From: Acanthornis magna
Taxonomy: Eukaryota; Chordata; Aves; Passeriformes; Acanthizidae
Length of the DNA: 64,000 nucleotides
Assembly: GCA_036785705.1 (NCBI GenBank)
Contig: JAWUZG010000352.1
Coordinates: forward strand, 310,001-374,000
Direction: 5' to 3'
In this document: positions 498-47,975 of the stretch, one piece after another
How positions within the stretch are numbered: position 1 is the first letter of the stretch
Layout: the number at the start of each line of letters is the position of its first letter
The notes under the pieces: model-generated
What the model was told of the DNA's origin: nothing
The model's input: the letters and a program-made list of their open reading frames with translations, nothing else
Databases searched by the model: none
Position numbers and translations under genes: made by a program

Positions 498-3400
498 CTG
501 GGGAGGAAGAGGAGGGTGAGGAGGAGGAGGAGGAGGAGGAAGAGGATGGAGGAGGAACAGGAGGATGAGGAGGAAGAGGAGAAAGAGGGGGATGGAAGAG
601 GAAGAGGAGGGTGAGGAGAAGGAGGAACAGGAGGATGGTGGAGGAAGAGGAGGAGGATGATGATGAGGATGGAAGAGGAAGAGGAGGATGGAGAAGGATG
701 GAGGAGGAAGAGGATGAGGAGGATGAAGAGAATGGAGGAGGATGAGGAGAAAGGGGAAGTGGTGAGGATCAGGAGGATGAGGAGGAGGAGGAGGAGGATA
801 AAGAGAATGGAGGAGGATGAGGAGAAACAGGAGGATGGAGGAGGAAGAACAGGGAGGGAGAAGGAAGAGGAGGATGAGGAGGAAGAGGATAGAGATGGAT
901 AGAGGATGGGGAGGAAGAAGAAGAAAAGGAAGAGAGAGAGGAGGAAGAGGAAAATGGAGGAGGAAGAGGAGGATGAGGAGGAGGATGGAGGAGGAGGATG
1001 AGGAGGAAAAGGAGGAGGAAGATGATGAGGAGGAAGAGGAGGAAGAGGATAGAGATGGATGGAGGATGAGGAGGAAAAGGAGGAGGAAGATGATGAGGAG
1101 GAAGAGGAGGAAGAGGATAGAGATGGATGGAGGATGAGGAGGAAGAGGAAGAAAAGGAGGAGAGAGAGGAGGAAGAGGAGAATGGAGGAGGATGAGGATG
1201 ATGAGGAGGAAGAGGACAGAGATGGATGGAGGACGATGATGATGAGGATGAGGAGGCTCCCACCTTCATCCTCTGGGACGAGTAGCGGCCGAAGAGGTTC
1301 TTGGTGGAGGCCTCGGTGCCCTTGAGGATCTCCACGATGCGCAGGCAGTGGAAGTAGTGTAGGTCTGGGGGGGAACGAACGGGGTCAGCGGGGGGCTGGG
1401 GGTTTAGGGGATCCCAGGAGGTTTTGGGGGATCCTGGGAAGGTTTAGGGGATCCCCAGGAGGTTTTGGGGGATCCCAGGAGGTTTTGAGGGATCCCCAGG
1501 AGGTTTTGAGGGATCCTCAGGAGGTTTTGGTGGATCCCCAGGAGATTTTAGAGGATCCCAGGAGGTTCTAGGGCATCCCCAGGAGGTTTTAGAGGATCCC
1601 AGGAGGTTTTGAGGGATCCCCAAGAGGTTCTAGGGCATCTCCAGGAGTTTTTAGGGGGTCCCCAGGAGGTTTTAGAGGATCCCCAGGAGTTTTTAGGGAT
1701 CCCAGGATGTTTTGGAGGATCCCTATGAAGTTTTGGTGGATCCCCAGGAGGTTTTAGAGGATCCCAGGAGGGTTTGAGGGATCCCCAAGAAGTTCTAGGG
1801 CATCTCCAGGAGTTTTAGAGAATCCCAGGAGGTTCTAAGGGATCCCCAGGAGGTTTTGAGGGATCCCCAAGAGGCTTTAAGGCATCTCCAGGAGGTTTTA
1901 GGGGATCCCACCCCCAACCCTTCACACCCAACCTCCATCCGCACCCCAAAATCCAACCCCCAATCCTCAACCCCCAAACCCCAAACCCCAATTCCAAACC
2001 CTGCACCCCAAACCCCAATCGCACCCCAAACCCCAAACCCCAACCCCAACCCCTGCACCCCAAACCCCCAACCCCAAACCCCAATTCCAAACCCCAACCC
2101 CAAACCTCAAATCCCAAACCCCAACTCCCAAACCCCAACCCCCAAACCTCAACCCCCAACCCCAAACCTCAACCTCCATCCGCACCCCAAAACCCAACCC
2201 CCAACCCCAAACCCTGCACCCCAAACCCTGCACCCCAAACCCCAATTCCACCTCAAACCCCAACCCCCAAACCGCAACCCCTGCACCCCAAACCCCAACC
2301 CCGATTCCACCCCAAACCCCAACCCCAATTCCACCTCAAACCCCAACCCCCAAACCCCAACCCCTGCACCCCAAACCCCAACCCCGATTCCACCCCAAAC
2401 CGGCACTCACAGGAGCCCTGGAGCAGCTCCTTGATCTCCTGGTTCTCGGGCATGTCCTGCAGCGCGGCCTGGATGCGCTCGCGGATCAGCTGAGCCTGGC
2501 TCTGCCACCGGACACTGCAGTGCCGCCGGTCCAGCAGCCAGTCTGTGCCGCGGGGACAGCGGGGACAGCAGGGTCACCATGGGGACAGCAGGGACAGCGG
2601 GGTCACCACGGGGACAGTGGGGACAGCGGGGTCACAGCGGGGACAGTGGGGACAGCGGGATCACAGCAGGGTCACAGCAGGGACAGTGGGGTCACCACGG
2701 GGTCACAGCAGGGACACCACAGGGTCACCACGGGGACACCGCAGGGTCAGCGGGGACAGTGCGGGTCACAGCAGGGTCACAGCGGGGTCACCACGGGGTC
2801 ACAGCGGGGACAGCGCGGCCTGGATGCACTCGCGGATCAGCTGAGCCTGGCTCTGCCACCGGACACTGCAGTGCCGCCGGTCCAGCAGCCAGTCTGTGCC
2901 ACGGGGACAGTGGGGACAGCGGGGTCACAGTGGGGTCACAGCAGGGACAGCGGGGTCACCACGGGGACAGTGGGGACAGCAGGGTCACCACAGGGACAGC
3001 AGGGACAGCGGGGTCACCACGGGGACAGTGGGGACAGTGGGGACACCGCGGGGTCAGTGGGGACACCACGGGGTCACCGCGGGGTCACCACAGGGTCATC
3101 AGGGTTTCCGCAGGGTCACAGCGGGGTCACCACGGAGTCACCACGGGGACAGCGGGGTCATCGCGGGGACAGCAGGGACAGTGGGGTCACAGCGGGGACA
3201 GTGGGGTCACCATGGAGTCACCGCGGGGACAGCGGGGACAGTGGGGTCACCACAGGGTCACAGCAGGGACACCACGGGGACACTGCAGGGACAGCGGGGT
3301 CACCGCAGGGTCACAGCGGGGTCACAGCAGGGACAGTGCGGCCTGGATGTGCTCCCGGATCAGCTGAGCCTGGCTCTGCCACCGGACACTGCAGTGCCGC

Positions 3401-6400
3401 CGGTCCAGCAGCCAGTCTGTGCCGCGGGGACACAGTGGGGACAGCGGGGTCACCGCGGGGACAGTGGGGACAGTGGGGACACCGTGGAGTCAGCGGGGTC
3501 ACTGCAGGGTCACAGCGGGGTCACAGCAGGGTCACCACGGAGTCACCATGGGGACAGTGGGGTCACAGCGGGGACAGCAGGGTCACCATGGAGTCACCAC
3601 AGGGACAGCGGGTTCACAGTGGGGACAGCAGGGTCACCACAGGGTCACAGCTGGGACACCACAGGGTCACCACGGGGACACCGCAGGGTCAGCGGGGACA
3701 GTGCGGGTCACAGCAGGGTCACAGCGGGGTCACCACGGGGTCACAGCGGGGACAGCGCGGCCTGGATGCGCTCGCGGATCAGCTGAGCCTGGCTCTGCCA
3801 CCGGACACTGCAGTGCCGCCGGTCCAGCAGCCAGTCTGTGCCACGGGGACAGTGGGGACAGCGGGGTCACAGTGGGGTCACAGCAGGGACAGCGGGGTCA
3901 CCACGGGGACAGTGGGGACAGCAGGGTCACCACAGGGACAGCAGGGACAGCGGGGTCACCACGGGGACAGTGGGGACAGTGGGGACACCGCGGGGTCAGT
4001 GGGGACACCACGGGGTCACCGCGGGGTCACCACAGGGTCATCAGGGTTTCCGCAGGGTCACAGCGGGGTCACCACGGAGTCACCACGGGGACAGCGGGGT
4101 CATCGCGGGGACAGCAGGGACAGTGGGGTCACAGCGGGGACAGTGGGGTCACCATGGAGTCACCGCGGGGACAGCGGGGACAGTGGGGTCACCACAGGGT
4201 CACAGCAGGGACACCACGGGGACACTGCAGGGACAGCGGGGTCACCGCAGGGTCACAGCGGGGTCACAGCAGGGACAGTGCGGCCTGGATGTGCTCCCGG
4301 ATCAGCTGAGCCTGGCTCTGCCACCGGACACTGCAGTGCCGCCGGTCCAGCAGCCAGTCTGTGCCGCGGGGACACAGTGGGGACAGCGGGGTCACCGCGG
4401 GGACAGTGGGGACAGTGGGGACACCGTGGAGTCAGCGGGGTCACTGCAGGGTCACAGCGGGGTCACAGCAGGGTCACCACGGAGTCACCATGGGGACAGT
4501 GGGGTCACAGCGGGGACAGCAGGGTCACCACAGGGTCACAGCTGGGACACCACAGGGTCACCACGGGGACACCGCAGGGTCAGCGGGGACAGTGCGGGTC
4601 ACAGCAGGGTCACAGCGGGGTCACCACGGGGTCACAGCGGGGACAGCGCGGCCTGGATGCGCTCGCGGATCAGCTGAGCCTGGCTCTGCCACCGGACACT
4701 GCAGTGCCGCCGGTCCAGCAGCCAGTCTGTGCCGCGGGGACAGCGGGGACAGCAGGGTCACCATGGGGACAGCAGGGACAGCGGGGTCACCACGGGGACA
4801 GTGGGGACAGCGGGGTCACAGCGGGGACAGTGGGGACAGCGGGATCACAGCAGGGTCACAGCAGGGACAGTGGGGTCACCACGGGGTCACAGCAGGGACA
4901 CCACAGGGTCACCACGGGGACACCGCAGGGTCAGCGGGGACAGTGCGGGTCACAGCAGGGTCACAGCGGGGTCACCACGGGGTCACAGCGGGGACAGCGC
5001 GGCCTGGATGCACTCGCGGATCAGCTGAGCCTGGCTCTGCCACCGGACACTGCAGTGCCGCCGGTCCAGCAGCCAGTCTGTGCCACGGGGACAGTGGGGA
5101 CAGCGGGGTCACAGTGGGGTCACAGCAGGGACAGCGGGGTCACCACGGGGACAGTGGGGACAGCAGGGTCACCACAGGGACAGCAGGGACAGCGGGGTCA
5201 CCACGGGGACAGTGGGGACAGTGGGGACACCGCGGGGTCAGTGGGGACACCACGGGGTCACCGCGGGGTCACCACAGGGTCATCAGGGTTTCCGCAGGGT
5301 CACAGCGGGGTCACCACGGAGTCACCACGGGGACAGCGGGGTCATCGCGGGGACAGCAGGGACAGTGGGGTCACAGCGGGGACAGTGGGGTCACCATGGA
5401 GTCACCGCGGGGACAGCGGGGACAGTGGGGTCACCACAGGGTCACAGCAGGGACACCACGGGGACACTGCAGGGACAGCGGGGTCACCGCAGGGTCACAG
5501 CGGGGTCACAGCAGGGACAGTGCGGCCTGGATGTGCTCCCGGATCAGCTGAGCCTGGCTCTGCCACCGGACACTGCAGTGCCGCCGGTCCAGCAGCCAGT
5601 CTGTGCCGCGGGGACACAGTGGGGACAGCGGGGTCACCGCGGGGACAGTGGGGACAGTGGGGACACCGTGGAGTCAGCGGGGTCACTGCAGGGTCACAGC
5701 GGGGTCACAGCAGGGTCACCACGGAGTCACCATGGGGACAGTGGGGTCACAGCGGGGACAGCAGGGTCACCACAGGGTCACAGCTGGGACACCACAGGGT
5801 CACCACGGGGACACCGCAGGGTCAGCGGGGACAGTGCGGGTCACAGCAGGGTCACAGCGGGGTCACCACGGGGTCACAGCGGGGACAGCGCGGCCTGGAT
5901 GCGCTCGCGGATCAGCTGAGCCTGGCTCTGCCACCGGACACTGCAGTGCCGCCGGTCCAGCAGCCAGTCTGTGCCACGGGGACAGTGGGGACAGCGGGGT
6001 CACCACGGGGACAGCGGGGACAGCGGGGTCACAGCAGGGACAGCGGGGTCACCACGGGGACAGTGGGGACAGCGGGGTCACAGCGGGGTCACAGCAGGGA
6101 CAGCGGGGTCACCACGGGGACAGTGGGGACAGCAGGGTCACAGTGGGGTCAGTGGGGACAGTGGGGACACCGTGGAGTCAGTGGGGACACCGCGGGGTCA
6201 CCACGGAGTCACCATGGGGTCAGCGGGGTCATTGCAGGGATAGCGGGGTCACCACAGGGACAGCAGGGACAGTGGGGTCACAGCAGGGACACCACGGGGA
6301 CACCGCAGGGTCAGCAGGGACAGTGTGGGTCACAGCGGGGTCACCATGGAGTCACCATGGGGACAGCGGGGTCACCGTGGGGTCACCCTGGGGTCACAGT

Positions 6401-7748
6401 GGGGACACCGCAGGGTCAGCGGGGACAGTGGGGTCACCGCAGGGGCACTGGGGAATGGGAGACAGCCCCGGGATCCAGGGGCAGAGGGGGCAAACTCTGG
6501 GATTAATTCCAGGCCGAACTCTGGGATCAATTAAATTTCCAGTTCTGGAGGGGAAATGGACAGGCCAAACTCTGGGATCAATTCCAGGCCGAAATCTGGG
6601 ATCAATTCCCAGTTCTAGAGGGTAAAAAGGAAGGGTCAAACACTGGTGTGAATTCCCAATTCTGACCCCAAATCTGGAGGGTAAAGGAGAGGTCAGACTC
6701 TGGGGTGAATTCCAGGCTTTTTCCCATGTTTGGAGGGGAAAGAGAGGATCAAATATTTGAATGAATTTCCAAATCTTCCCCTAAATCTGGAGGGAAAAGG
6801 AAGAGCCAAACTCTGGGATCAATTCCAAGCTTTTTCCCGGGTTTGGACGGAAAGAGAGGGTCAAACTCTGGGATTAATTCCAGGCTCTTTCCCCAAATCT
6901 GGAGGGGAAAAGGAAGGGCCAAACTCTGGGATCAATTCCCAGCTCTGGATGAGAAGTTGGGGTTCAGGGGAGCCTAACACTGGGATGAATTCCCAACTCT
7001 TCCCCAGGTCTGGAGAAAAAACGGGAGGATTAGGCTGGGGATAAACTGGGAAGAATTCCTGACTCCTTCCCCAGTTTGGAGGGACAGGGAGAGTGGGGGG
7101 AGGCCGAGGACAATTCCCGTTCAAATTCCCGTTCAGATTCCCGTTAAATACCCAGGAGTTTGCTGGTCTGGATGTCGATGGGCACATTCTGGTAGTCCTG
7201 GGGAGCGACCTGCGGGGAGGGCACGGGAGGAGCGGGGCTGCGGGAGCCCGACCGGCACCGGCACCGGGAGCGGCACCGGGAGCGGCACCGGCACCGGGAG
7301 TGGGTTCGGGACCCTCCGCTCCAGCGCCCGGGCCCGAGCTGTCCCCGCTCCCCTGGGCCTGGACCCGCTCTCGGCCCCTTCCCCGGTCCCGGTCCCGATG
7401 CCGATCCCGGTCCCTTCCCCGGTCCCCGGTCCCTTCTCCGGTCCCGATCCCGGTCCCCATCCCCATCCCGATCCCGGTCCCGCTCCCGCTCCCGCTCCCG
7501 GTCCCGATCCCGCTCCCGGTCCCGATCCCGATCCCGATCCTGGTCCCGGTCCCGATCCCGCTCCCGGTCCCGATCCCCATCCCGATCCTGGTCCCGGTCC
7601 CGATCCCGATCCCGATCCCGGTCCCGATCCCGGTCCCGATCCCGATCCCGATCCTGGTCCCGGTCCCGATCCCCATCCCGATCCCGATCCCCATCCCGTT
7701 CCCGATCCCGCTCCCGGTCCCGGTCCCGGTCCCGGTCCTCACCTGCAT
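449..7748 (-). CDS. CDK5RAP3: CDK5RAP3 (C53/LZAP), first five coding exons; gene continues beyond position 1
   Basis: CDK5RAP3 is the adaptor of the UFL1-DDRGK1 UFM1 E3 ligase at the ER membrane, with reported roles in ER-phagy and checkpoint control (known for the family). Spliced exons 7743-7748, 7152-7197, 2411-2542, 1264-1364 and 449-497 give 111 codons plus one base in continuous phase. The peptide starts MQDYQNVPIDIQTSKLLDWL and contains MPENQEIKELLQGS, YLHYFHCLRI, GTEASTKNLFGRYSSQRMK and DWQEIVSLYEKENTYL, which align without gaps to the N-terminus of vertebrate CDK5RAP3. The remaining roughly 390 residues (UFIM motifs, C-terminal coiled coil) lie outside the window. It is divergent from PRR15L. 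All four introns are packed with tandem repeats, and intron 2 carries eight extra partial copies of exon 3. Identity is very secure; exon 1 rests on a six-base coding segment. Confidence 0.95.
500..1250. repeat. Near-pure purine (GGA/GAGGAT) array in CDK5RAP3 intron 4
   Basis: About 750 bp with almost only A and G on the plus strand apart from scattered T in GGATGA units. In the sense (minus) strand it is a continuous C/T tract upstream of the exon 5 acceptor. Confidence 0.92.
1264..1364 (-). CDS. CDK5RAP3: CDK5RAP3 coding exon 4
   Basis: Acceptor CCCCCCAG, donor AAG|GTGGGA. Completes Tyr from exon 3 and reads LHYFHCLRIVEILKGTEAS then TKNLFGRYSSQRMK, almost identical to the mammalian protein. 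Confidence 0.93.
1395..1905. repeat. GGATCCCAGGAGGTTTT array, CDK5RAP3 intron 3
   Basis: Degenerate units of about 20-30 bp containing GGATCCC(C)AGGAGGTTTT. Confidence 0.88.
1906..2402. repeat. CCCCAAACC array, CDK5RAP3 intron 3
   Basis: C/A-rich repeat (CCCCAAACCCCAA, CCTGCACCCCAAA, CCAATTCCA), ending nine bases from the exon 3 donor. Strongly strand-asymmetric. Confidence 0.9.
2411..2542 (-). CDS. CDK5RAP3: CDK5RAP3 coding exon 3 (authentic copy)
   Basis: Encodes WLLDRRHCSVRWQSQAQLI and onward to LLQGS, ending with one base at a GTGAGT donor. The acceptor is CACAG just above 2542. This is the only one of nine copies with the full exon and a donor: the first 83 bases (2460-2542) are repeated eight more times between 2811 and 5968, but only here does the reading continue through QDMPENQEIKELLQGS. 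Confidence 0.92.
2543..6450. repeat. Higher-order minisatellite containing partial copies of CDK5RAP3 exon 3
   Basis: The base unit is a 9-15 bp G-rich motif (GGGGACAGCGGGGTCACC and variants). Inserted at intervals are 83-bp copies of the first part of exon 3 with the adjoining acceptor. Acceptor-exon junctions lie at 2542 (authentic), 2893, 3416, 3835, 4358, 4726, 5077, 5600 and 5968, giving spacings 351, 523, 419, 523, 368, 351, 523, 368. This is a three-part higher-order repeat (351+523+368 = 1242 bp), with one block 51 bp longer and one lacking the 351-bp part. It fills most of intron 2. Long plus-strand open frames, one of 1328 codons, are by-products of stop-poor repeats. Confidence 0.95.
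6480..7080. repeat. Tandem array, CDK5RAP3 intron 2, exon 2 side
   Basis: Degenerate units of about 60 bp containing AACTCTGGGATCAATTCC, CCCAAATCTGGAGG and GGGAAAAGGAAG. No exon-like peptide seen. Confidence 0.82.
7152..7197 (-). CDS. CDK5RAP3: CDK5RAP3 coding exon 2
   Basis: Encodes DYQNVPIDIQTSKLL plus one base, ending at a GTATTT donor. The acceptor is CCCCAG at 7198-7200; another AG 12 bases upstream would add VAPQ in frame, so an alternative acceptor is possible. The single trailing G is completed by exon 3 to make Asp. Confidence 0.85.
7380..7738. repeat. (CCCGATCCCGGT)n array abutting the CDK5RAP3 exon 1 donor
   Basis: Six-base register repeat CCCGAT/CCCGGT/CCCCAT/CCCGCT ending directly at the exon 1 donor. 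The related array at 7976-8125 lies on the other side of the promoter. The stretch 7201-7380 between exon 2 and this array is GC-rich with GGCACCGGGAGC repeats and no exon. Confidence 0.9.
7743..7748 (-). CDS. CDK5RAP3: CDK5RAP3 coding exon 1 (Met-Gln)
   Basis: The minus strand reads ATGCAG followed at once by a GTGAGG donor. Joined to exon 2 this gives MQDYQ, parallel to MEDHQ of the human protein, whose first coding exon is equally short. The 5' UTR would extend upward into the CCAAT-rich promoter. Confidence 0.75.
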
Positions 7749-7749
7749 C

Positions 7750-8482: not shown

Positions 8483-8639
8483 GCTGATGCCACCGCAATT
8501 CCCTCCCTTCCCGGGGCCCGACCCTCGTGTCGCGGGGCCACCGCCACCGAACCGCGAGGCCACCGCGCCCGGAGCGCGGCCACGGCCGGCCCGCGGCGGT
8601 GACAGCCACCCAGGGCCACCCAGGGCCACCCCGGGTCAC

Positions 8640-10690: not shown

Positions 10691-11378
10691 CGGAATATAA
10701 AATAGAGTGGAATGGAGTGAAATGGAATGGAGTGGAATTGAATTAGAATAGAATGGAATAGAGAATAGAAAATAGAATAGAATAGAATAGAATAGAATAG
10801 AATAGAATAGAATAGAATAGAATAGAATAGAATAGAATAGAATAGAATAGAGAATAGAAAATAGAATGGAATGGAATGGAATGGAATGGAATGGAATGGA
10901 ATGGAACGGAATAGAATAGAATAGAGAATATAATAAGAGAAGAGAAGCGAAGCGAAGTGAAGCAAAGAGAAGAGAAGAGAAATAGAATGGAATGGAATAG
11001 AATAGAATTAGAATAGAATAGAATAGAATAGAATAGAATAGAATAGAGAATAGAATAGAAAATAGAATAGAAAATAGAATGGAATGGAATGGAATGGAAT
11101 GGAATAGAATAGAATAGGATAAAATAAAATAAAATAAAATAAAATAAAATAAAATAAAATAAAATAAAATAAAATAAAATAAAATAAAATAAAATAAAAT
11201 AAAATATTGCCACACTTCAGGAGCACCCTGGAGAATGGAATAGAATAGAATAGAAAATAGAATAGAATGGAATAGAATGGAATAGAATAGACTAGACTAG
11301 ACTAGACTAGACTAGACTAGAATAGAATAGAATAGAATAGAATAGAATAGAATAGAATAGAATAGAATAGAATAGAAT
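10691..11378. repeat. Pentanucleotide array (GAATA/GAATG, AAAAT, CTAGA)
   Basis: Consecutive blocks of (GAATA)n, (GAATG)n, (GAAGC)n-like, (AAAAT)n at about 11117-11204 and (CTAGA)n at about 11287-11320. A short non-repeat (GCCACACTTCAGGAGCACCC) interrupts at 11208-11230. All blocks keep the five-base register. Confidence 0.97.
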
Positions 11379-12732: not shown

Positions 12733-12775
12733 AGGCAATCCCGGGGGGGAACACCACCCCCAGATCCATCTCGGG

Positions 12776-39300: not shown

Positions 39301-42300
39301 GGAGGCTCCAGGAGCCGTCCACTCCCTGTCACTGTGTCCCCTGAGAAGGCTCTGGGAGTTGTCCACTCCCTGTCCCTGTGTCCCCTCAGGACACTCCAGG
39401 AGCCACCCACACCCTGTCACCGTGTCCCCTCAGAAGGGTCCAGGAGCCGTCCACTCCCTGTCACTGTGTCCCCTGAGAAGGCTCTGGGAGTTGTCCATTC
39501 CCTGTCACTGTGTCCCCTCCAGAAGCTCCATGAGCCACCCACACCCTGTCCCTCCAGAACCTTCAGGAGCCATCCACATCCTGTCACCGTGTCCCCTCAG
39601 GACACTCCAGGAGCCACCCACTCCCTGTCACTGTGTCCCCTCAGGAGGGTCGAGGAGCCACCCACTCCCCGTCACTGTGTCCCCCCAGGAAGCTCTGGGA
39701 GCTGCCCACTCCCTGTCCCTGTGTCCCCTCAGGGCACTCCAGGAGCCACCCACACCCTGTCACCATGTCCCCTCAGAAGGGTCCAGGAGCCACCCACTCC
39801 CTGTCACCGTGTCCCCTCAGGAAGCTCTGGGAGCTGCCCACACCCTGGCCCCTCAGAAGGGTCCAGGAGCCACCCACTCCCTGTCACTGTGTCCCCTCAG
39901 GACACTCCAGGAGCCGTCCACACCCTGTCCCTCCAGAACCTCCAGGCGCCATCCACTCCCTGTCACCGTGTCCCCTCAGGAGGCTCTGGGAGCTGCCCAC
40001 ACTGTGTCCCTTCCAGAAGCTCCAGGAGCTGTCCACACCCTGTCACCGTGTCCCCTCAGGAGGCTCTGGGAGCTGCCCACACTGTGTCCCCCCAGGAAGC
40101 TCCAGGAGCCATCCACATCCTGTCACCGTGTCCCCTCAGGACACTCCAGGAGCCACCCACACACTGTCACTGTGTCCCCTCAGAAGGGTCCAGGAGCCGT
40201 CCACTCCCTGTCACTGTGTCCCCTCAGGAAGCTCTGGGAGCCACCCACTCCCTGTCACTGTGTCCCCTCGGGAGGCTCTGGGAGCTGCCCACACTGTGTC
40301 CCTTCCAGAAGCTCCAGGAGCCACCCACACCGTGTCCCTCCAGAACCCCCAGACACCCCCCACCCACCCCAGGTCACCCCACGCCACCCACCTGCGCTGT
40401 TGGTGATGGTGACAGGGACACCCTGCACCCATCCACTCCCTGTCACTGTGTCCCCTCAGGACACTCCAGGAGCCATGTACACACTGTCACCGTGTCCCCT
40501 CAGAAGGGTCCAGGAGCCACCCACACCCTGTCCCTCCAGACACACCCCACGCCACCCACCTGCGCTGTTGGTGATGGTGACAGGGACACCCTGCACCTGC
40601 ACGCCGTTGATGTTGATGGTCTGCATGGCCTGGGCAGCTGCCGCCAGCTGCGCCGCGTTCAGGCTCAGGATGCCCCCGGCCGGGGCGATTTTGGGTAGCG
40701 GCCGTTCCTTCCGCGGGGCACTTCTGCGGCCACCGCCACCGCCGGGGCTGCGGGACACGGGACTGCCACACGATGTCCCCGAGGATGGGGCCACGGCCAC
40801 CGAGGAGGCTTCCTGGAGGAGCAAGGTTTGCAGTTCGCCCGACGGGGTTTTGAAGTACATCTGGAGGGGAGATTTTAGGGGAAATAGGGGGTTAGATGGG
40901 GTTAGGAGAATTTAAAAGGTGTAATTTTAAATTTAAATTCAATGTAATGTCATAGAATGATAAATTTATGCTTTTATAAAAGGATAAATTTAAAGGCCTT
41001 GGGTATTTTCAGGGCAGAACCTTCCTGTGTCCACCCAAAGATGGACACTCAGGCCAAACCTCTTCACTCTTTGTCTTTTTTTAATTCTGTCCATTAGCAC
41101 ATTGGACCCCAATTCTCCAATTAATTACACTTTCAGCTGATGATGACAACTGCCCCAGCCTGCCCCCCCCACCTATTTTTTATATATTTTGTGGCCCCAA
41201 GGTAGCGAAAATGTCATTGGATTTCCTCTCAGAGGAATTGTTTGGGCTGAAGGGAACAGAAGTTCTTCAGTTCTTCACTCTTCACCTTTTTTAATTTCTG
41301 TCTATTAGCATATTGGACCCCAATTCTCCAATTAATTACACTTTCAGCTGATGATGTCAGCTGCCCCAGCCAGCTCCCCCCAACAATTCTCTGTTTTTTA
41401 CATATTTTGTGGCTCTGAGGCAGCAAAAATGTCTTTGGATTTCCTCTCAGAGGAAATTTGGCTAAAGGGAACAGAAGTTCTTCAGCTCTTCACTCTTTGT
41501 CTTTTTTAATTTCTGTTCGTTAGCATATTGGACCCCAATTTTCTAATTAATTACACTTTCAGCTGATGATGTCAACTGCCCCAGCCTGCTCCCCCCACCA
41601 ATTTTTTATATATTTTGCAGCTCTGAGGCAACAGAGAACCCAAAAACCAGGGAACATCCCCAAAAAAAACCCTCCAGCTCCTAAATCCTGGCCAAGAATC
41701 AGAGCAGATCCCATGGGATCATCACCTGGGTGGGAGTGATCCCAACCACCAGAGAATCCAAAACTGGGAACACCCCAAAAAAATCCCTCCAGCTCCTAAA
41801 TCCCAGGCGAGAATCAGAGCAGATCCCACGGGATCATCACCTGGGTGGGCGTGGGCTCGGCCGCACTCCCAACCACCACAGACCCCAAAATGGGGAATGT
41901 CCCCAAAAAAACCCTCCAGCTCCTAAATCCTGGGCGAGAATCAGAGCAGAACAGATCCCATGGGATCATCACTTGGGTGGGAGTGATCCCAACCACCAGA
42001 GTCCCCAAAAATAGGGAAAACACCAAAAAAAAAAAAACCCTCCAGGTCCTAAATCACTGGTGAGGATCAGAGCTGAAAAACGCGGAATCATCACCTGGGT
42101 GGGAGTGAGCTTGGCTGCACTCCCAACCACCACAAACCCCAAAACGGGGAATGTCCCCAAAAAGTCCCTCCAGCTCCTAAATCCTGTCCGAGAATCAGAG
42201 CAGAACAGATCCCACGGGATCATCACCTGGGTGGGAGTGATCCCAACCACCAGAGACCACTAAAACCAGAAAATGTCCCCAAAAAATCCCTCCAGCTCCT

Positions 42301-45300
42301 AAATCTCGGGTGAGGATCAGAGCAGAACAACGCGTGGGATCCCAACCACCAGAGAACCCCAAAACAGGGAAAACCCCAAAAAATCCCTCCAGTTCCTAAA
42401 TCCCGGGCAAGAATCAGAGCAGATCCTGCGGGATCATCACCTGGGTGGGCGTGGGCTCGGCCGTGCTCCCAACCACCAGAGACCCCAAAAACAGGGAAAA
42501 CACCAAAAAAATCCCACTAGCTCCTAAATCCTGGGCGAGAATCAGAGCAGATCCCGCGGGATCATCACCTGGGTGGGAGTGATCCCAACCACTAGAGACC
42601 ACTAAAACCAGAAAATGTCCCCAAAAAATCCCTCCAGCTCCTAAATCTCGGGCGACGATCAGAGCAGAACAACGTGGGATCATCACCTGGGTGGGAGTGA
42701 TCCCAACCACTGGAGAACCCAAACTGGGGAACACCACAAAAATCCCTCCAGCTCCTAAATCCTGTCCGAGAATCAGAGCAGAACAATGAATGGGATCCCA
42801 ACTACCAGAGACCCCAAAATCAGGAACGTCCCAATTAAAAAACCCTCCAGCTCCAAAATCCCAGACGAGAATCAGAGCAGATCCCATGGGATCATCACCT
42901 GGGTGGGAGTGATCCCAACCACCAGAGACCCCAAAAATAGGGAAAACACAAAAAGAAATCCTCCAGGTCCTAAATCCCTGGTGAGGATCGGAGCAGAAAA
43001 ACGCGTGATCATCACCTGGATGGGAGTGATCCCAACCACCAGAGACCCCAAAATGGGGAAAACCCCAAAAAATCCCTCCAGCTCCTAAATCCTGTCCGAG
43101 AATCAGAGCAAAACAGATCCCACAGGATCATCACCTGGGTGGGAGTGATCCCAACCACCAGAGACCACTAAAACCAGAAAATGTCCCCAAAAAATCCCTC
43201 CAGCTCCTAAATCTCGGGTGAGGATCAGAGCAGAACAACGCGTGGGATCCCAACCACCAGAGAACCCCAAAACAGGGAAAACCCCAAAAAATCCCTCCAG
43301 TTCCTAAATCCCGGGCGAGGATCAGAGCAGAAAAACGCGGCGGAGATCCTGTGGGATCATCACCTGCATGGGAGTGAGCTCAGCCGTGCTCCCAGCCACC
43401 AGAGACCCCAAAATGGGGAAAACCCCAAAAAATCCCTCCAGTTCCTAAATCCTGGGCAAGAATCAGAGCAGAACAACGTGGGAGCATCACCTGGGTGGGA
43501 GTGATCCCAACCACTGGAGACCACTAAAACCAGAAAATGTCCCCAAAAAATCCCTCCAGCTCCTAAATCCCGGGTGAGAATCAGAGCAGATCCCATGGAA
43601 TCATCACCTGGGTGAGAGTGAGCTCGGCTATGCTCCCAGCCACCAGAGAATCCAAAACCAGGGAAAACCCCCAAAAAAATCCCTCCAGCTCCTAAATCCT
43701 GGGCGAGGATCAGAGCAGAACAGATCCCATGGGATCATCACTTGGGTGGGAGTGATCCCAACCACCAGAGACCCCAAAAATAGGGAAAACACCAAAAAAA
43801 AAAATCCTCCAGGTCCTAAATCCCTGGTGAGGATCGGAGCGGAAAAACGCGGAATCATCACCTGCGTGGGAGTGAGCTCAGCTGCGCTCCCAACCACCAG
43901 AGACTCCAAAATGGGGAAAACCCCAAAAAATCCCTCCAGCTCCTAAATCCTGTCCGAGAATCAGAGCAGATCCCACGGGATCATCACCTGGGTGGGCATG
44001 GGCTCAGCTGTGCTCCCAACCACCAGAGACCCCAAAATGGGGAAAACCCCAAAAAATCCCTCCAGTTCCTAAATCCTGTCCGAGAATCAGAGCAGAAAAA
44101 TGAACGGGATCCCAACTACCAGAGAACCCAAAACTGGGAATGTCTCCAAAAAAATCCCTCCAGGTCCTAAATCCCGGGCGAGAATCAGAGCGGAAAAACG
44201 CGGTGGAGATCCCGTGGGATCATCACCTGCATGGGAGTGAGCTCAGCCGTGCTCCCAGCCACCAGAGACCCCAAAACCAGGGAAAACCCCCCAAAAAAAC
44301 CCCTCCAGTTCCTAAATCCTGGGCGAGGATCAGAGCAAAACAGATCCCACAGGATCATCACCTGGGTGGGAGTGATCCCAACCACCAGAGACCACAAAAA
44401 CCAGAAAATGTCCCCAAAAAAATCCCTCCAGCTCCTAAATCCTGTCCGAGAATCAGAGCAGATCCCACGGGATCATCACCTGGGTGGGCATGGGCTCAGC
44501 TGTGCTCCCAACCACCAGAGACCCCAAAATGGGGAAAACCCCAAAAAATCCCTCCAGCTCCTAAATCCTGTCCAAGAATCAGAGCAGAAAAATGAACGGG
44601 ATCCCAACTACCAGAGAACCCAAAACTGGGAATGTCTCCAAAAAAATCCCTCCAGCTCCTAAACCCCAGGTGAGAATCAGAGTGGAAAAACGCGGTGGAG
44701 ATCCCGTGGGATCATCACCTGCATGGGAGTGAGCTCAGCCGTGATCCCAGCCACCAGAGACCCCAAAATGGGGAAAACACCAAAAAAATCCCTCCGGCTC
44801 CTAAATCCTGGGCGAGAATCAGAGCAGAACAACATGGGATCATCACCTGGGTGGGAGTGATCCCAACCACTAGAGACCCCAAAAACAGGGAAAACACCCA
44901 AAAAAATCCCTCCGGCTCCTAAATCCCGGCCGAGAATCAGAGCAGATCCCGCGGGATCATCACCTGGGTGGGCGTGGGCTCGGCCGCCTGGATCTGGAAG
45001 TTCTGCGAGGATTTCTGGGGCACGGTGGGCAGCGTGGCCGAGGCTGCCTGCACCACGCGCAGCGCCTGCTGCGGAATCTGCACCACCTGCGACTCCTGCT
45101 TGGGCTGCACCACCTGCACCTGCTGCACCACCGCCGGCTGCCCCGAGCCCGGGCTCTGCACGATCAGCAGGTTATTCCCAGCCTGGATGATATTCTCCGC
45201 CGTGGTTTCGATCAGAACCGTCTCCACCTGCTCGGCCACGGCCACGGCGGCCGGTTGCCCCGGGGAAACGGCTTTTTTTCGGGGTTTTTTACCCGGTTTG

Positions 45301-47053
45301 GAAGGGCTGTCCGTGAGGAGTTGGGTTTGTCCACCCCCTTCGGGTGTCACCAAGTTGTTGACGGGTAGGGTCAAGGTGACGTTGCCACCTCCGGGTAATT
45401 TGACCACGCCGCTCGTGGTCGTCGTCGTCGTTGTCGTCGCCGTTTTCTGCGCCGGCGCCGGTTTGATGGGCACGGGTTTGTGCGAGGAAGAGGAAGGCGT
45501 GAGGATGGCTTGGTTGGTGCCAGGGATGATCTGGATCTGGTTGGGCTGCACCTGGATGGTCTGAGCCCCGCCGGCACCGCCTGGTACTGAATGTTGGAGG
45601 AGGAGGAGGATGAAGATGAAGAACGGGAGGTTTTGTTGAGCACCGCCGGGTTCTGGATGGCGAAAACCAACTGCCCCCGGGGTAGGAGGTCCCAACTTGG
45701 GATCCCTGGATCTGGAAGAGGTTCCCTTTGGAGGACAGGATGCCGATGCTGTTTTTGGCCGAGGCCAGGGGCAGCGGGGCGGGTTTGATGGGCACCAGCT
45801 TGCGAGGGGCCGGCTGCGGAGGGGCCGGCGGCGTCACGGCAGCTTCCACGGCGGGGGGACCGATCTTGCTACATGTGGCTGCCAGCAGGGCCAGGGGAGA
45901 GGGCTGCGAGTCCTGGGGAGAGAGGGGAGGTCGGTGGTTGTGTTCACGAGGCTCCCCTCGTTAAGGGAGACATTAATTATTTGTGGGATCGAGGAATTCC
46001 GAGGAAATGTGAAAATCTCGGAGATGGTCCAGCCCAGAGCACGGCGCTGAGTGCCACATCCAATATTTCCCTAAAAACCTCCAGGGATGGGGACTCCTCC
46101 TCCTCCCTGGGCAGCCCATCCCAATCCCTGATTTTTCTGTGAAAAAATTCCTCCTAATGTGTGCTTTTACCAGTGGTGACATCAGGCTGGTGACAGTTTT
46201 TAAATCCTATCCCCATGTCCTCAAAACCATCACAAAGCTATGGATATCAAGGAAGCTTCCCCATCCCAATCCCTGATTTTTCTGTGAAGAAATTCCTCCT
46301 GATGTGTGCTTTCAGGAGTGGTGATTTCAGCTTTTAAATCCCAATCTGTGTCCTTAAAACCATCACAAAGCTATGGATATCAAGGAAGCTTCCCCATCCC
46401 AATCCCTAATTTTTTCTGAAGAAATTCCTCCTGATGTGTGCTTTTAGCAGAGGTGACATCAGGCTGGTGACAGTTTTTAAATTCCATCTTCATGCATTTA
46501 AAACCATCACAAAGCTATGAGGATTTCCCTCGGAATCAGAATCCCAAACCCACCCCGAGATATTGCCAGAAACGTGAGAGACCCTCAGGGAGGAGGAACA
46601 CCACTGGGATCAGGACTAGGAATGAGCTCCAGGGGCTGTTCTGGATGCTCCTGAATCCTCCTGGACCCTCCTGGACCCTCCTGAATCCTCCTGGATCGTC
46701 CTGAACCCTCCTGAATCCTCCTGGACCCTCCTGGATCCTCCTGAATCCTCCTGGATCCTCCTGGACCCTCCTGAATCCTCCTGGACCCTCCTGGATCCTC
46801 CTGAATCCTCCTGGATCCTCCCGAACCCTCCCGAATCCTCCTGAATCCTCCCAAACCCTCCTGAATCCTCCTGGACCCTCCTGGATCCTCCCGAACCCTC
46901 CCGAATCCTCCCGAATCCTCCCAAACCCTCCTGAATCCTCCTGGACCCTCCTGGATCCCAGGAGAAATCCTGAGGATGATCTGGACTCACCTGGGCGGCC
47001 GAGGCTGCAGGCTGCAGGTATTCGCTGGGGCTGACGGCAGCAGTGGCAGCCAT
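30218..47053 (-). CDS. SP2: SP2 transcription factor, six coding exons
   Basis: SP2 is a nuclear Sp/KLF-family zinc-finger protein that acts at many CCAAT/GC promoters. Coding exons 46991-47053, 44964-45912, 40560-40860, 35469-35643, 32389-32581 and 30218-30318. In order: start [20 protein letters not shown]; a long Ser/Thr/Gln-rich activation region including [20 protein letters not shown] and [20 protein letters not shown]; the Buttonhead box CTCPNC in exon 5; three C2H2 fingers ([60 protein letters not shown]), ending HLVTKNL-stop as in human SP2. The frame is broken by two one-base losses in exon 3 and a phase mismatch at the exon 5/6 junction; allowing for those, about 594 residues (human 613). 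Human SP2 has MSDPQTS before MAATAAV; no such in-frame ATG is seen here. Identity is certain, intactness is not. Confidence 0.95.
30390..32385. repeat. GGGTGAATTTCCCAGGATTT array, SP2 intron before the last exon
   Basis: Units of 20-30 bp (GGTGAATTTCCCGGGATTTG), later GGGGTGCGATTTGGGTGAAT. Superimposed are copies of the exon 6 donor edge: CCCCAGACCTGTGTGTG at 30657, 31084 and 31352 (junction), and diverged copies near 30527, 30758, 30938 and 31555. Confidence 0.95.
32389..32581 (-). CDS. SP2: SP2 exon 6, zinc fingers 1 and 2
   Basis: Acceptor CCGCAG, donor CACACAG|GTCTGG. Encodes AGRSRKKKH, then fingers [20 protein letters not shown] and [20 protein letters not shown]. It opens in phase 0 while exon 5 ends in phase 2, so one base is missing at or near this junction. 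Confidence 0.93.
32600..35465. repeat. CCAAACTCACCCATTCCCAC array, SP2 intron between exons 5 and 6
   Basis: Around one hundred units of 25-30 bp (not counted exactly). The sense strand of most units contains GGTGAGTTTGG, matching the real exon 5 donor GAG|GTGAGTTCGGGG and its first ~30 intron bases. CTTGTTCCTG(C/T)TTTTTGACA is a second recurrent sub-unit. Confidence 0.96.
35469..35643 (-). CDS. SP2: SP2 exon 5 with Buttonhead box
   Basis: Acceptor CCGTGCAG, donor AAGAG|GTGAGT. Encodes [20 protein letters not shown] through [20 protein letters not shown] and [21 protein letters not shown] is the Btd/CXCPXC box found in Sp factors just before the fingers. Confidence 0.95.
35644..35920. other. 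Non-repetitive SP2 intron segment
   Basis: AT-richer intronic sequence between exon 5 and the cassette exon candidate. No other feature recognised. Confidence 0.5.
35921..35974 (-). CDS. SP2: Candidate 54-nt in-frame cassette exon of SP2
   Basis: The minus strand has two CTGAC branch-point-like motifs (TTGCTGACGCTGACCCC), a pyrimidine tract, CTTTCCAG, 54 bases, then GTAAGT, a near-perfect donor. Inserted between exons 4 and 5 (both sides phase 1) it reads [18 protein letters not shown] without a stop and keeps the frame. I do not recognise it as a standard SP2 exon; it could be alternative or lineage-specific, or a chance combination of good splice signals. Confidence 0.45.
36067..36114. repeat. 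(GGA)n microsatellite
   Basis: A pure GAGGAG run of about 45 bases just upstream (sense direction) of the cassette exon candidate. Confidence 0.9.
36215..37725. repeat. GAGTGTCCTGGATGGGATTG array, SP2 intron 4
   Basis: Units of 15-30 bp made of GTGTCCTGGATGGGATTGTC and CTGGCTGGGAATGTCC. Confidence 0.95.
37726..38080. other. Non-repetitive GC-rich intronic island
   Basis: Contains GTAATTAAAATCC, GCGGCCGC and GGAGGGAGATAAAATCCC. No exon recognised. CpG content and unique sequence make an internal regulatory element possible. Confidence 0.3.
38085..39122. repeat. GAGGGTCATTTTTTGGGAAT array, SP2 intron 4
   Basis: Units of about 35-40 bp with CCCTGCAGTGAGGGTCA and TGGGAATGCTGATCCCTGG. Confidence 0.95.
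39123..40548. repeat. CCCTGTCACCGTGTCCCCTC array, SP2 intron 4
   Basis: Units of about 40-55 bp (CTCAGGACACTCCAGGAGCC, CCCTCCAGAACCTCCAGG). Includes one 46-bp copy of the exon 4 end plus donor at about 40381-40426. Confidence 0.95.
40560..40860 (-). CDS. SP2: SP2 exon 4
   Basis: Acceptor CCCTCCAG, donor GCGCAG|GTGGGT. Encodes [20 protein letters not shown], then [20 protein letters not shown] and [20 protein letters not shown], very close to mammalian SP2. Confidence 0.95.
40865..41060. other. Non-repetitive SP2 intron 3 segment
   Basis: AT-rich intronic sequence with no recognised feature. Confidence 0.5.
41061..41640. repeat. ~213-bp AT-rich tandem repeat, three copies
   Basis: The landmark ATTGGACCCCAATT recurs at 41101, 41312 and 41527 (spacing 211 and 215). 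Units contain ACTTTCAGCTGATGATG and GGATTTCCTCTCAGAGG. Possibly derived from an older interspersed element; not identified. Confidence 0.9.
41641..44940. repeat. ~100-170-bp composite array copying the SP2 exon 3 donor, SP2 intron 3
   Basis: Units contain CTCCTAAATCCTGGGCGAGA, AATCAGAGCAGATCCC, GGGATCATCACCTGGGTGGG and CCAACCACCAGAGACCCC. On the sense strand CCCACCCAGGTGATGATCCC equals the true exon 3 donor. The fullest copies (near 41840 and 42440) extend through AEPTPTQ codons. Confidence 0.95.
44964..45912 (-). CDS. SP2: SP2 exon 3, activation domain (two apparent one-base losses)
   Basis: Acceptor CTCCCCAG, donor ACCCAG|GTGATG. Starts [20 protein letters not shown], then [20 protein letters not shown] and SYPGG. 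The frame then shifts: [12 protein letters not shown] to NIQYQAVP is in a second frame, and [20 protein letters not shown] to the exon end ([12 protein letters not shown]) in a third. The shifts map to the C5 run at 45674-45678 and the C4 run near 45566-45569, each one base short of the expected codon. A serine run (from AGG/AGA repeats) and a threonine run lie within. Length 949; 951 would be in frame. Confidence 0.94.
45913..46030. other. Unique SP2 intron 2 segment
   Basis: Non-repetitive sequence between the exon 3 acceptor and the CR1-like fragment. Confidence 0.5.
46030..46170 (+). mobile_element. CR1-type LINE 3' fragment
   Basis: Contains the hallmark avian CR1 string order: GAGTGCCACATCCAATATTT, AAAACCTCCAGGGATGGGGA, CCCTGGGCAGCCCATCCCAA and TGTGAAAAAATTCCTCCTAA. 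Only about 140 bp is present, non-coding and 5'-truncated as is usual for CR1. Confidence 0.8.
46171..46520. repeat. ~130-190-bp tandem repeat partly derived from the CR1 fragment
   Basis: Two further copies of CCCATCCCAATCCCTGATTT and GAAATTCCTCCTGATGTGTG (from about 46262 and 46396), each followed by ACCATCACAAAGCTATG and TCAAGGAAGCTTCC. The unit joins a CR1 piece to flanking DNA. Confidence 0.88.
46635..46965. repeat. CTCCTGGATCCTCCTGAATC array
   Basis: A 10-bp register repeat (CCTCCTGAAT / CCTCCTGGAC) ending about 25 bases from the SP2 exon 2 donor. Confidence 0.95.
46991..47053 (-). CDS. SP2: SP2 exon 2, first coding exon
   Basis: The exon spans 46991-47066: acceptor GACCCCACAG, 13 bases of 5' UTR, ATG, 21 codons, donor GCCCAG|GTGAGT. 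Encodes [23 protein letters not shown]. This ATG corresponds to Met8 of human SP2. Exon 1 offers no in-frame ATG (only GTG and an ATG followed shortly by TGA), so this start is chosen. Confidence 0.9.
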
Positions 47054-47066
47054 GCTGTCCCTCGAG

Positions 47067-47975
47067 CTGTGGGGTCAGAGAGGGGACAGATCAGCCGAGG
47101 GAGTCCCCAAAATGTCCCCAAACTGCTCAGGGGACACGGGGCTGTCCCTGGAGCTGTGGGGTCAGAGAGGTGACAGATCAGCCGAGGGAGTCCCCAAAAT
47201 GTCCCCAAACTGCTCAGGGGACATGGGGCTGTCCCTCAAGCTGTGGGGTCAGAGGGGACAGATCAGCCAAGGGAGTCCCCAAAATGTCCCCAAAGTGCTC
47301 AGAGGACACGGGGCTGTCCCTCGAGTTGTGGGGTCACATCAGGGACAGATCAGCCGAGGGGTTCCCCCTTGGGATGTCCCCAAACTGTCCCATCTCACTT
47401 GGGGGACATGGGGCTGTCCCTCGAGCTGTGGAGTCAGAGCGGGGATGGATCAGCCGTGGCATTCCCCTGGGATGTCCCCAAACTGTCCCCAAACTGCTCA
47501 GGGGACATGGGACTGTCCCTCAAGCTGTGGGGTCAGAGAGGGGACCGATCAGCTGAGGGAGTCCCCAAAATGTCCCCAAACTGCCAGGGGGATTTGGGGC
47601 TGTCCCTCGAGCTGTGGGGTCAGAGAGGTGACAGATCAGCTGAGGGATTGCCCCAGGATGTCCCCAAAGTGTCCCACCTCACTCAGGGGATATGGGGCTG
47701 TCCCTCGAGCTGTGGGGTCAGAGAGGTGACAGATCAGCCAAGGGAGTCCCCAAAATGTCCCCAAAATGTCCCACCTCGCTCAGGGGATATGTCCCTCAAG
47801 CTGTGGGGTCAGAGCGGGGATGGATCAGCCGTGGCATTCCCCTGAGATGTCCCCAAACTGCTCAGGGGACATGGGGCTGTCCCTCGAGCTGTGGGGTCAC
47901 AGCAGGGACAGATCAGCCAAGGGATTCCCTGGGATGTCCCCAAACTGTCCCACCTCACTCGGGATTGTCCCCAGG
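47067..47975. repeat. ~80-100-bp array copying the SP2 exon 2 acceptor
   Basis: Nine copies after the authentic exon, near 47150, 47237, 47320, 47422, 47520, 47607, 47701, 47790 and 47879. Each contains CTGTCCCTCGAGCTGTGGGG, which on the sense strand is CCCCACAG|CTCGAGGGACAG, the true acceptor with 12 exon bases. The rest is GACAGATCAGCCGAGGGA and GTCCCCAAAATGTCCCC. Confidence 0.95.

Follow-up and report, generated by a model that had tools for sequence, protein, structure and literature searches.

Tandem copies of exon edges in intronic arrays of CDK5RAP3, PRR15L, PNPO and SP2 in Acanthornis magna: a probable instance of exon stuttering

The DNA analysed here (the window) is a stretch of 64,000 nucleotides from contig JAWUZG010000352.1 (C352) of the Acanthornis magna assembly GCA_036785705.1, in which 19 exons with 33 splice edges were placed by splice sites and reading frame. 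CDK5RAP3 was identified by matches to human CDK5RAP3 (PDB 8qfc/8ohd) and to PF05600, and PNPO by a match to PDB 1nrg. PRR15L is present with a coding exon and a presumed acceptor. The identity of the last gene is based on three zinc fingers and the exon structure, and we take this zinc-finger gene to be SP2. Tandem Repeats Finder (TRF) covers 72% of the whole window, and in CDK5RAP3, PNPO and SP2, which have several exons each, 90–97% of intronic sequence lies in local self-similarity; such heavy simple-repeat cover of introns is one criterion of exon stuttering, which is taken up below. Ten stretches of the C352 flanks are 41–94% TRF, and ten stretches on eight other contigs are 0–35%, with a median of about 1%. 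G-quadruplex motifs occupy 14% of the bases in repeated and 6% in unrepeated DNA; as a common driver they were rejected, because they cover merely 0–3% of six of the eight arrays and so do not explain the array set.

Table 1. Exons, arrays and exon-edge copies in the window (positions of the window; extra copies of an exon edge are termed decoys).
Feature	Position	Strand	Basis
CDK5RAP3 exon 3, functional copy (first 83 bases 2460–2542)	2411–2542	-	splice sites, reading frame, human CDK5RAP3 match
CDK5RAP3 intron 2 array, short G-rich minisatellite; 8 exon 3 acceptor decoys (first exon base 2893, 3416, 3835, 4358, 4726, 5077, 5600, 5968)	2543–6454	-	
1129-bp block with 83 bp of functional exon 3, zero mismatches to 4644–5772	2460–3588	-	
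Perfect second copy of 2460–3588	4644–5772	-	
PRR15L array of 211-bp units ending at the presumed coding-exon acceptor; 4 decoy acceptors (first exon-side base 11900, 12111, 12322, 12535)	11728–12739	+	acceptor presumed from position
PNPO exon 6 donor array, 71-bp unit x4 (19 exon bases + GTGAGT + intron); exon part of the functional copy 16593–16615	16327–16615	-	
PNPO exon 6	16593–16663	-	splice sites, reading frame, PDB 1nrg
SP2 intron E6-E7 array; 5 exon 6 donor decoys (first intron base 30533, 30656, 31083, 31351, 31557)	30411–31557	-	
SP2 exon 6, zinc fingers	32389–32581	-	splice sites, reading frame, zinc-finger match
SP2 intron E5-E6 array; repeats hold the exon 5 donor motif GTGAGTT	32596–35468	-	
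SP2 exon 5	35469–35643	-	splice sites, reading frame
Lone extra edge from the SP2 exon 4 donor, with 38 bases of exon and 17 of intron	40375–40429	-	
SP2 exon 4	40560–40860	-	splice sites, reading frame
SP2 intron E3-E4 array	41632–44981	-	
SP2 exon 3 (two single bases of C1177 missing from the window)	44964–45912	-	
SP2 exon 2	46991–47066	-	splice sites, reading frame
Array in SP2 intron 1, upstream of exon 2; 9 exon 2 acceptor decoys (47153–47888)	47054–47971	-	

An earlier reading, made from the DNA letters alone (the sequence-only reading), had placed repeats that copy the neighbouring exon edge at eight junctions, and the span it gave, 2411–47900, is right. Copying is clear at four of the junctions (the CDK5RAP3 exon 3 acceptor and the donors of PNPO exon 6, SP2 exon 3 and SP2 exon 4, with 13–83 exon bases) and short at two (the SP2 exon 2 acceptor, at most 13 bases, and the SP2 exon 6 donor, 7–10), whereas the PRR15L acceptor and the SP2 exon 5 donor share little past the splice site. 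Its figure of 10–80 exon bases in most cases applies to about six of the eight junctions and not to the others. The repeat units do contain splice sites, as it had proposed, and in six cases exon bases too; it was also right that the functional exon stands at one end of the copies.

In CDK5RAP3, the exon 3 acceptor edge recurs in eight extra copies with 83 exon bases each, and AG is kept in 8/8. The intron 2 array, with a best TRF period of 1242, has a higher-order structure in which a 1129-bp block including coding bases recurs perfectly, and the break on the exon side falls at CGCTG, which is common to the exon and the minisatellite. Beyond the window, eight junctions of this gene were run, including the exon 7 donor, which was misplaced and carries no information. 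Three further cases were found there, namely a donor with 6 decoys and acceptors with about 28 and 5, the exon part of the copies reaching up to 95 bp. The figure of about 28 belongs to the exon 8 acceptor, which has 38 matches, 34 of them with AG; it counts the continuous run at 300142–304778 alone and leaves out the further 10 matches. The acceptors of exons 9, 11 and 6 have no decoys (the exon 6 query was one base off), and the exon 7 acceptor has three weak matches of 9 exon bases without AG. The three extra copies of the PNPO exon 6 donor are identical over 19 exon bases, their alignments extend to 32 exon bases with mismatches, and GT is kept in 3/3. At the PNPO exon 3 donor, an edge absent from the earlier reading, 8–14 exon bases align and the aligned copy is without GT.

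With an anchor outside the splice site used for counting, the SP2 E3-E4 array consists of 28 units, 27 of them decoys; the units have diverged by about 10%. The exon 3 donor is kept in 22 of the 27, with 13–24 aligned exon bases and GT in 22/22, and its absence from the other five looks like one common deletion. At the SP2 exon 4 donor the single extra copy keeps GT (1/1), as do all five copies of the exon 6 donor (5/5), and the nine extra copies of the exon 2 acceptor, with 11–13 exon bases, keep AG in 8/9. The four extra PRR15L copies align over 7 exon bases with one mismatch each and keep AG in 4/4; inspection of seven bird PRR15L proteins by eye found nothing repeated that would point to array-derived extensions. 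For the SP2 exon 5 donor, alignment to the functional site gave 12 extra copies with GT in 12/12. Here the intron side is copied, and copying of the exon side, which is 70% alike (52/74) over 6–8 bases, is not convincing.

A second contig of the same assembly (C1177) spans PNPO–SP2 and contains neither CDK5RAP3 nor PRR15L. All six PNPO and SP2 array families are present in it. The window has 22 decoys of the SP2 exon 3 donor and C1177 has 13; the corresponding numbers are 9 and 16 for the exon 2 acceptor and 1 and 2 for copies of the exon 4 donor, and the three other families have equal decoy counts, the PNPO exon 6 donor array with 4 copies in C1177 too. The SP2 E3-E4 array has 28 units in the window and 18 in C1177, where this intron measures 2886 bp as against 4103 bp, and intron E4-E5 measures 4377 bp as against 4916 bp. 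If C1177 is the other allele, these are the 2 of 11 introns whose length differs by more than 10%, another criterion of exon stuttering; the remaining nine differ by 0–18 bp. We infer that C352 and C1177 represent alleles, although in principle C1177 might instead come from a diverged paralogue. No marks of exchange between the contigs were seen in the exon edges, the one difference in SP2 exon 4 lying outside the copied edge. The exon base differences in SP2 exons 3 and 6 mean that neither contig is error-free.

These data bear on the concern that mis-stacked repeat reads might have produced false exon-edge copies or copy numbers. The perfect 1129-bp duplicate lies in CDK5RAP3, a gene outside C1177, and local consensus errors occur: SP2 exon 3 lacks two single bases in the window, and C1177 has an additional base in SP2 exon 6. 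However, C1177 has the same arrays with other copy numbers; therefore, a one-off assembly error does not account for them, and some of them are variable. Most decoys also differ from the functional copy by 2–30%, depending on the family (exon or intron side; SP2 exon 4 excepted), which stacking errors would not produce, and a like structure in a chicken gene is reported as verified by raw nanopore reads (PMC12954441). An assembly artefact is thus highly improbable.

The exon-edge copies go beyond chance. The screen of Hron et al. (a match of at least 20 bp and at least 42.1 bits on the sense strand) covered 15 introns of CDK5RAP3, PNPO and SP2, with neither PRR15L nor SP2 intron 1 among them. 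It gave 11 matches in three introns (CDK5RAP3 E2-E3, SP2 E3-E4 and SP2 E4-E5), every one adjoining its source exon; PNPO E6-E7, SP2 E5-E6 and SP2 E6-E7 fail it. The top score in 20 mononucleotide shuffles was 20.3 bits, as against the 42.1-bit threshold.

Whether exon edges are preferred is a separate matter. From its eight cases the sequence-only reading had argued for a general process seeded at exon edges; on such a view, a feature of the junction (a composition step, R-loops, U1-bound RNA or a nucleosome edge) would make it a preferred origin of duplication. By the refutation test that it set itself, this argument is not supported, as local repeats match 0.92 of 1417 intron positions and 8 of the 33 exon edges, the latter eight differing from the reported ones in that the PNPO exon 3 donor is in and PRR15L is out. 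There is no jump in the repeated fraction at the splice site, across which it rises smoothly. Because the introns are nearly all repeat, exon placement was then randomised as well, with exons required to be at least 37% unrepeated (a matched filter, set at the value of CDK5RAP3 exon 3, the most overlapped exon barring mask errors) or at least 80% unrepeated (a stricter one). Under the 37% filter, 8 overlaps were observed in gene bodies and 8.4 expected, and 4 against 7.7 for overlaps of at least 15 exon bases; for the whole window, without the 80% filter, 8 compare with 5.7 ± 2.0 (P = 0.19). The 80% filter, which largely shuts out the very overlaps being counted, gives a clear excess, the 8 observed comparing with expected numbers of 2.7 ± 1.4 for gene bodies and 1.8 ± 1.3 for the window. 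The overlaps were entered by hand for 32 of the 33 edges, the 6-base CDK5RAP3 exon 1 being omitted; SP2 exon 5 was set to 8 and PNPO exon 6 to 23, the end of the TRF array, since the mask wrongly spanned the whole exon. An alternative version, unused for the verdict, had a filter of its own that dropped large overlaps and retained 19 of the 33 edges; it found at least 8 bases at 5 of these 19, versus 0.23 in controls. Exon edges thus need not be favoured seeds, the outcome hanging on the placement condition, and the eight near-exon matches were rejected as proof of a special process, although the 80% filter leaves room for a pull towards exon edges. In addition, array ends pile up modestly within 20 bp of the junction (6 edges at -20 to 0 and 4 at 0 to 20, of 29; four values deeper than -60 in this histogram are wrong-side or mask errors), and the SP2 E3-E4 and E5-E6 repeats contain the donor itself. 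A selective wall would give such a pile-up anyway, and seeding at exon edges appears unlikely to us.

The earlier claim that selection keeps the terminal copy alone intact does not agree with the decoys, since GT or AG is largely retained in all eight families, albeit among copies recovered by aligning to the functional site, a procedure biased towards intact copies. Moreover, an end copy is functional without selection, because duplication of an exon edge plus intron leaves the remainder of the exon on one end copy. Retention of GT/AG might also be taken to mean that the decoys are used alternative sites, U1-binding sites or switches for unproductive splicing. In a parsimony test of the splice core in five families, two fell below expectation: the SP2 exon 3 donor with 2 steps against 14.8 expected (P = 0.002 with random columns and 0.011 with contiguous windows; 0.04 and 0.02, respectively, without CpG columns) and the SP2 exon 5 donor with 1 step against 9.8 (P = 0.005 and 0.042). 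Against this, no splice-core conservation was found in CDK5RAP3 exon 3, SP2 exon 2, PRR15L or SP2 exon 6. The SP2 exon 5 signal is an effect of copy choice, because with an off-site anchor GTGAGT occurs in 39 of 64 subunits and shows no more conservation than the neighbouring columns. Selection on the decoys was accordingly rejected, as the families disagree and the exon 5 effect vanishes with the off-site anchor. Use of the nearest decoy would add stop codons in all three cases examined, and a function for the decoys is doubtful, indeed rather improbable. The notion that the introns are filled with strong-looking pseudo splice sites was not supported either. Donors that equal or outscore the real one are in sense excess in just 3 of 15 introns (SP2 E5-E6, 21 v 0; SP2 E3-E4, 21 v 7; PNPO E6-E7, 3 v 0) and in antisense excess in five (SP2 E6-E7, 5 v 61; CDK5RAP3 E2-E3, 97 v 147; PNPO E1-E2, 13 v 22; PNPO E5-E6, 0 v 3; CDK5RAP3 E4-E5, 0 v 2), with neither strand favoured in the other seven.

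We favour, with a probability of about 80%, exon stuttering by local, repeated tandem duplication with roughly arbitrary breakpoints, in introns that are almost wholly arrays. Duplications would begin and stop at more or less arbitrary points, most of them staying within the intron; where one breakpoint fell inside an exon, the exon edge would be copied together with its splice site and adjoining intron. The copy joined to the remainder of the exon would stay functional and the others, lacking that remainder, would become decoys, while unequal exchange or slippage may then alter the number of units, so that arrays and introns come to differ in copy number and length. As the sequence-only reading had suggested, the arrays are most naturally read as tandem duplications whose boundary lies within the exon. 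Slippage, unequal crossing-over or repair synthesis would probably be the molecular route, and the decoys are presumably ignored by splicing. Absence from ohnologues, a further criterion of exon stuttering, is seen at two SP paralogues on the large contigs C12 and C28, which we take to be SP3- and SP4-like: their stretches are 0% and 0.9% TRF, and no exon copies were found in one 10-kb stretch and one exon of each.

Related systems have been described. The repeats of the IFI6 (6-16/G1P3) minisatellite are said, in NAR in 1995, to give multiple splice donors in the transcript. Like the present arrays, it has a unit that includes the donor site where an exon ends; unlike there, the repeat donors here are putative, and their use would introduce stops in the three cases looked at. 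The mirages of amphioxus were reportedly the subject of Canestro et al. in 2002. In later papers, mirages (Adh3, globins, PGBD5) are minisatellite-like repeats across exon-intron boundaries that affect acceptors and donors, many with AG/GT, and are unstable in length; amphioxus is far from birds, and splicing is reported as undisturbed there (PMC3087553, PMC3902484). Minisatellite expansion at exon-intron boundaries is likewise described for human duplicated genes, with coding change or new introns as the outcome (PMC2812944), whereas the exon is apparently unchanged here. The nearest likeness is sequence stuttering or exon stuttering in chicken, published in February 2026 (Hron et al. 2026, PMC12954441). 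It consists of local tandem expansion of introns in which part of the adjoining exon and its donor or acceptor are copied while the exon is unaltered, with allelic length variation and absence in ohnologues; in the window, too, part of a coding exon recurs in the neighbouring intron as one or more directly oriented tandem copies. The exon part is 20–187 bp in 1–44 copies in chicken, and 7–83 bp (in the window) in 1 to about 28 copies here. A mismatch-free kilobase repeat with coding bases occurs here, and no mention of one was found in the available text of PMC12954441. The sequence-only reading knew of no described class of this kind, which the chicken (PMC12954441) and amphioxus (PMC3087553) precedents contradict. 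The locus is thus a strong fresh example of a published class, not a new class. New are the perching-bird gene block, the copy-number variation between two contigs and the repeat-free paralogue controls, together with a null test in which, under one condition, array-saturated introns yield about as many exon-edge overlaps as were observed. The likely allelic pairs, such as the 13 and 22 decoy donors of SP2 E3-E4, offer material for the old question of how the spliceosome chooses among near-identical sites.

As to location, the genes CDK5RAP3-PRR15L-PNPO-SP2 presumably lie on chicken chr27, which is not a dot chromosome, a placement that we did not find in print. The arrays here lie on a perching-bird contig of 848 kb that is unplaced; those of chicken are mostly on dot chromosomes, with 190 of 236 introns there and 10 on other microchromosomes (PMC12954441). 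The chicken dot chromosomes are given as chr16, 29–32 and 34–38, with an average of 4.0 Mb, in PMC9974502. It is conceivable, and we offer it tentatively, that exon stuttering extends beyond dot chromosomes and saturates another microchromosomal block in perching birds, that coding exon edges are live members of the arrays there, with the number of intact decoys differing between the two alleles of one bird, and that exchange between decoys and the functional edge, to which the 1129-bp block with its 83 coding bases would point, is able to change both the coding sequence and the choice of splice site. Among the bird entries with a longest contig above 1 Mb, 23 of 30 are at 5–12 Mb and the others at 1.9–4.8 and 42 Mb.

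For 33 splice edges, flanks of 120 bases either way were aligned to the window, and each family of copies was then aligned in turn. Eight junctions in four genes had been claimed by the sequence-only reading to carry intronic copies of the adjoining exon edge; four of these are clear and two are short, while those of PRR15L and SP2 exon 5 proved marginal. The donor of PNPO exon 3, absent from that list, aligns over 8–14 exon bases, and GT is absent from the copy examined. Exon stuttering is the published avian phenomenon in which parts of exons are tandemly copied into the neighbouring intron; the screen that Hron et al. (2026) devised for it was positive in 3 of 15 introns, namely CDK5RAP3 E2–E3 (8 hits), SP2 E3–E4 (2) and SP2 E4–E5 (1), the maximum in 20 mononucleotide shuffles being 20.3 bits. 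Most decoys (extra intronic copies of an exon edge with its splice site) retain the splice dinucleotide. The donor is missing from 5 of the 27 decoy units in SP2 E3–E4, apparently through one shared deletion. Use of the nearest decoy would be predicted to add stop codons at all three junctions examined (SP2 exon 3, PNPO exon 6 and CDK5RAP3 exon 3). The donor core of the SP2 E3–E4 decoys is unusually constant, with 2 parsimony steps versus 14.8 expected (P = 0.04 without CpG columns), and constancy of this type was not found in the other decoy families, allowing for ascertainment.

Features of the window and its surroundings (window positions unless prefixed with C352, the contig carrying the window)
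Feature	Position	Extra copies	Exon bases	Remark
CDK5RAP3 exon 3 acceptor		8	83	clear
PNPO exon 6 donor		3	19, identical	clear
SP2 exon 3 donor	41,632–44,981 (decoys)	22	13–24 aligned	clear
SP2 exon 4 donor		1	38	clear
SP2 exon 2 acceptor		9	11–13	short
SP2 exon 6 donor		5	7–10	short
PRR15L acceptor			7 aligned, one mismatch	marginal
SP2 exon 5 donor			6–8, 70% alike	marginal
CDK5RAP3 exact repeat	2460–3588 and 4644–5772			1129 bp
CDK5RAP3 exon 8 acceptor	C352:299974–304778	~28	~89	outside window
SP-type zinc-finger exon	C352:376148			just outside window, beyond SP2
GAATA-type pentamer array	10,735–11,378			644 bp, upstream of PRR15L
Inverted repeat	35,767–35,921			~155 bp overall, SP2 intron E4–E5
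SP2 exon 3, two bases missing	45,573–45,674			2 stop codons on translation

The decoys of the CDK5RAP3 array are spaced at 351, 523, 419, 523, 368, 351, 523 and 368 bp, and TRF gives 1242 bp as the best period; the exact repeat takes in 83 functional-exon bases. On the exon side the break is at CGCTG, a motif common to exon and minisatellite, which is only suggestive, since sequence so simple carries limited weight. The rest of the gene was located on C352 with a human CDK5RAP3 protein probe. Outside the window, the exon 6 donor (in the numbering used here) has 6 decoys with ~51 exon bases and GT in 5, and the acceptor of the PRYVER exon has 5 decoys with ~40 exon bases and AG in all five. The largest exon-edge array of this analysis, at the exon 8 acceptor, forms one continuous run upstream of the exon; there were 38 hits in total, 34 with AG, and the 10 of the 38 outside the run are putative. 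No decoys were found at three other CDK5RAP3 acceptors run outside the window, and one further acceptor gave weak hits only, without AG.

Such arrays could arise by duplication of a segment comprising intron, acceptor and exon start, which would place the new copy upstream and leave whole the copy adjoining the remainder of the exon; donor duplications would be the mirror image. The working copy would then be the terminal one because of the duplication geometry. G-quadruplex motifs cover 14% of repeated versus 6% of unrepeated window bases; by array, cover is 31% in CDK5RAP3, 14% in SP2 E5–E6 and 0–3% in the other six.

The view that exon edges seed a process of their own was not supported by a local-copy test on a 20-bp grid, in which a spanning copy needed at least 8 bases per side: 92% of 1417 intron positions have one, versus 8 of 33 exon edges (4 at 15 or more bases), and so do 3% of 131 positions inside exons. 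Averaged over edges, the repeated fraction climbs without a jump: it is 0.30 for the ten exon bases nearest the intron, then 0.37, 0.47, 0.49 and 0.56 for consecutive ten-base bins of the intron. Some values deep in exons are inflated by short exons and a mask error at PNPO exon 6. When the same exons were placed randomly, each at least 37% unrepeated, the 8 observed overlaps of 8 bases or longer compare with expectations of 8.4 ± 2.1 for gene bodies and 5.7 ± 2.0 for the whole window. For overlaps of 15 bases or longer, 4 were observed and 7.7 and 5.2 expected. Under an alternative condition of 80%, the expectations for 8 bases or longer fell to 2.7 (gene bodies, P 0.002) and 1.8 (window, P under 0.001), since so strict a filter rules out most overlaps in short exons. 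The data can thus be accounted for either with or without a particular preference for exon edges.

A second contig of the same assembly, C1177 (38.6 kb), spans the window from 14.5 to 52.2 kb. The seven PNPO exon stretches are identical between the two, SP2 exons are 99.5–100% identical, and the longest blocks show 94–99.7% identity. Decoys number 22 in the window versus 13 in C1177 at the SP2 exon 3 donor (28 versus 18 E3–E4 units when counted with an anchor set apart from the splice site), 9 versus 16 at the exon 2 acceptor and 1 versus 2 at the exon 4 donor, and are equal at PNPO exon 6 (3), SP2 exon 5 (12) and SP2 exon 6 (5). SP2 introns E3–E4 (4103 versus 2886 bp) and E4–E5 (4916 versus 4377 bp) differ in length; nine others compared are 0–18 bp apart. 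The simplest reading is that these are two alleles of one bird, C1177 probably being the second haplotype. SP2 exons 2 and 3 read open in C1177 and lack two single bases in the window; exon 6 is open in the window and has one extra base in C1177. These single-base differences are most likely consensus errors. The PNPO–SP2 intergenic stretch measures 6508 bp in the window and 8457 bp in C1177, 1949 bp apart.

A 1995 paper on IFI6 is said to describe a minisatellite giving multiple splice donors. The sequence-only reading knew of no described class of this kind; published accounts exist. Hron et al. (2026) describe 'sequence stuttering' in chicken, of which 'exon stuttering' is one form; the latter affects 115 genes and 236 introns, 190 of these introns on dot chromosomes, with possible alternative transcripts noted and the same geometry as the arrays here (PMC12954441); amphioxus 'mirages' are exon-intron boundary minisatellites reportedly without effect on splicing (PMC3087553, PMC3902484). 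In the literature collection searched, the term 'exon stuttering' occurs in PMC12954441 alone, whose main text names neither PNPO, CDK5RAP3 nor 'chromosome 27'; the present genes may be in its tables. The exon-edge arrays are a striking, real case of a known kind. What this case adds is a gene block from a perching bird, copy numbers that differ as between alleles, an explicit null test, and a perfect kilobase repeat that contains coding bases.

The window (C352:310001–374000, of an 848-kb contig in a 1.48-Gb assembly) holds CDK5RAP3, PRR15L, PNPO and SP2 in that order, and the zinc-finger exon beyond sits at the place that human gene order predicts for SP6. Perching birds supply the best PRR15L matches, which puts the source bird in that group. 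TRF covers 72% of the window, and in the three multi-exon genes 90–97% of intron bases lie in locally self-similar sequence. TRF cover is 41–94% in ten 10-kb C352 stretches around the window and 0–35% (median ~1%) in ten stretches from eight other contigs, which are not a random sample because they were drawn from contigs returned by an earlier search. Stretches at two SP paralogues (C12 and C28), which we take to be SP3- and SP4-like, have 0% and 0.9%, and no exon copies were found there with one exon searched in each. The inverted repeat in SP2 has 36-nt arms (83% complementary) flanked by an outer pair of 17 nt (94%), and looks like a small inverted-repeat element.
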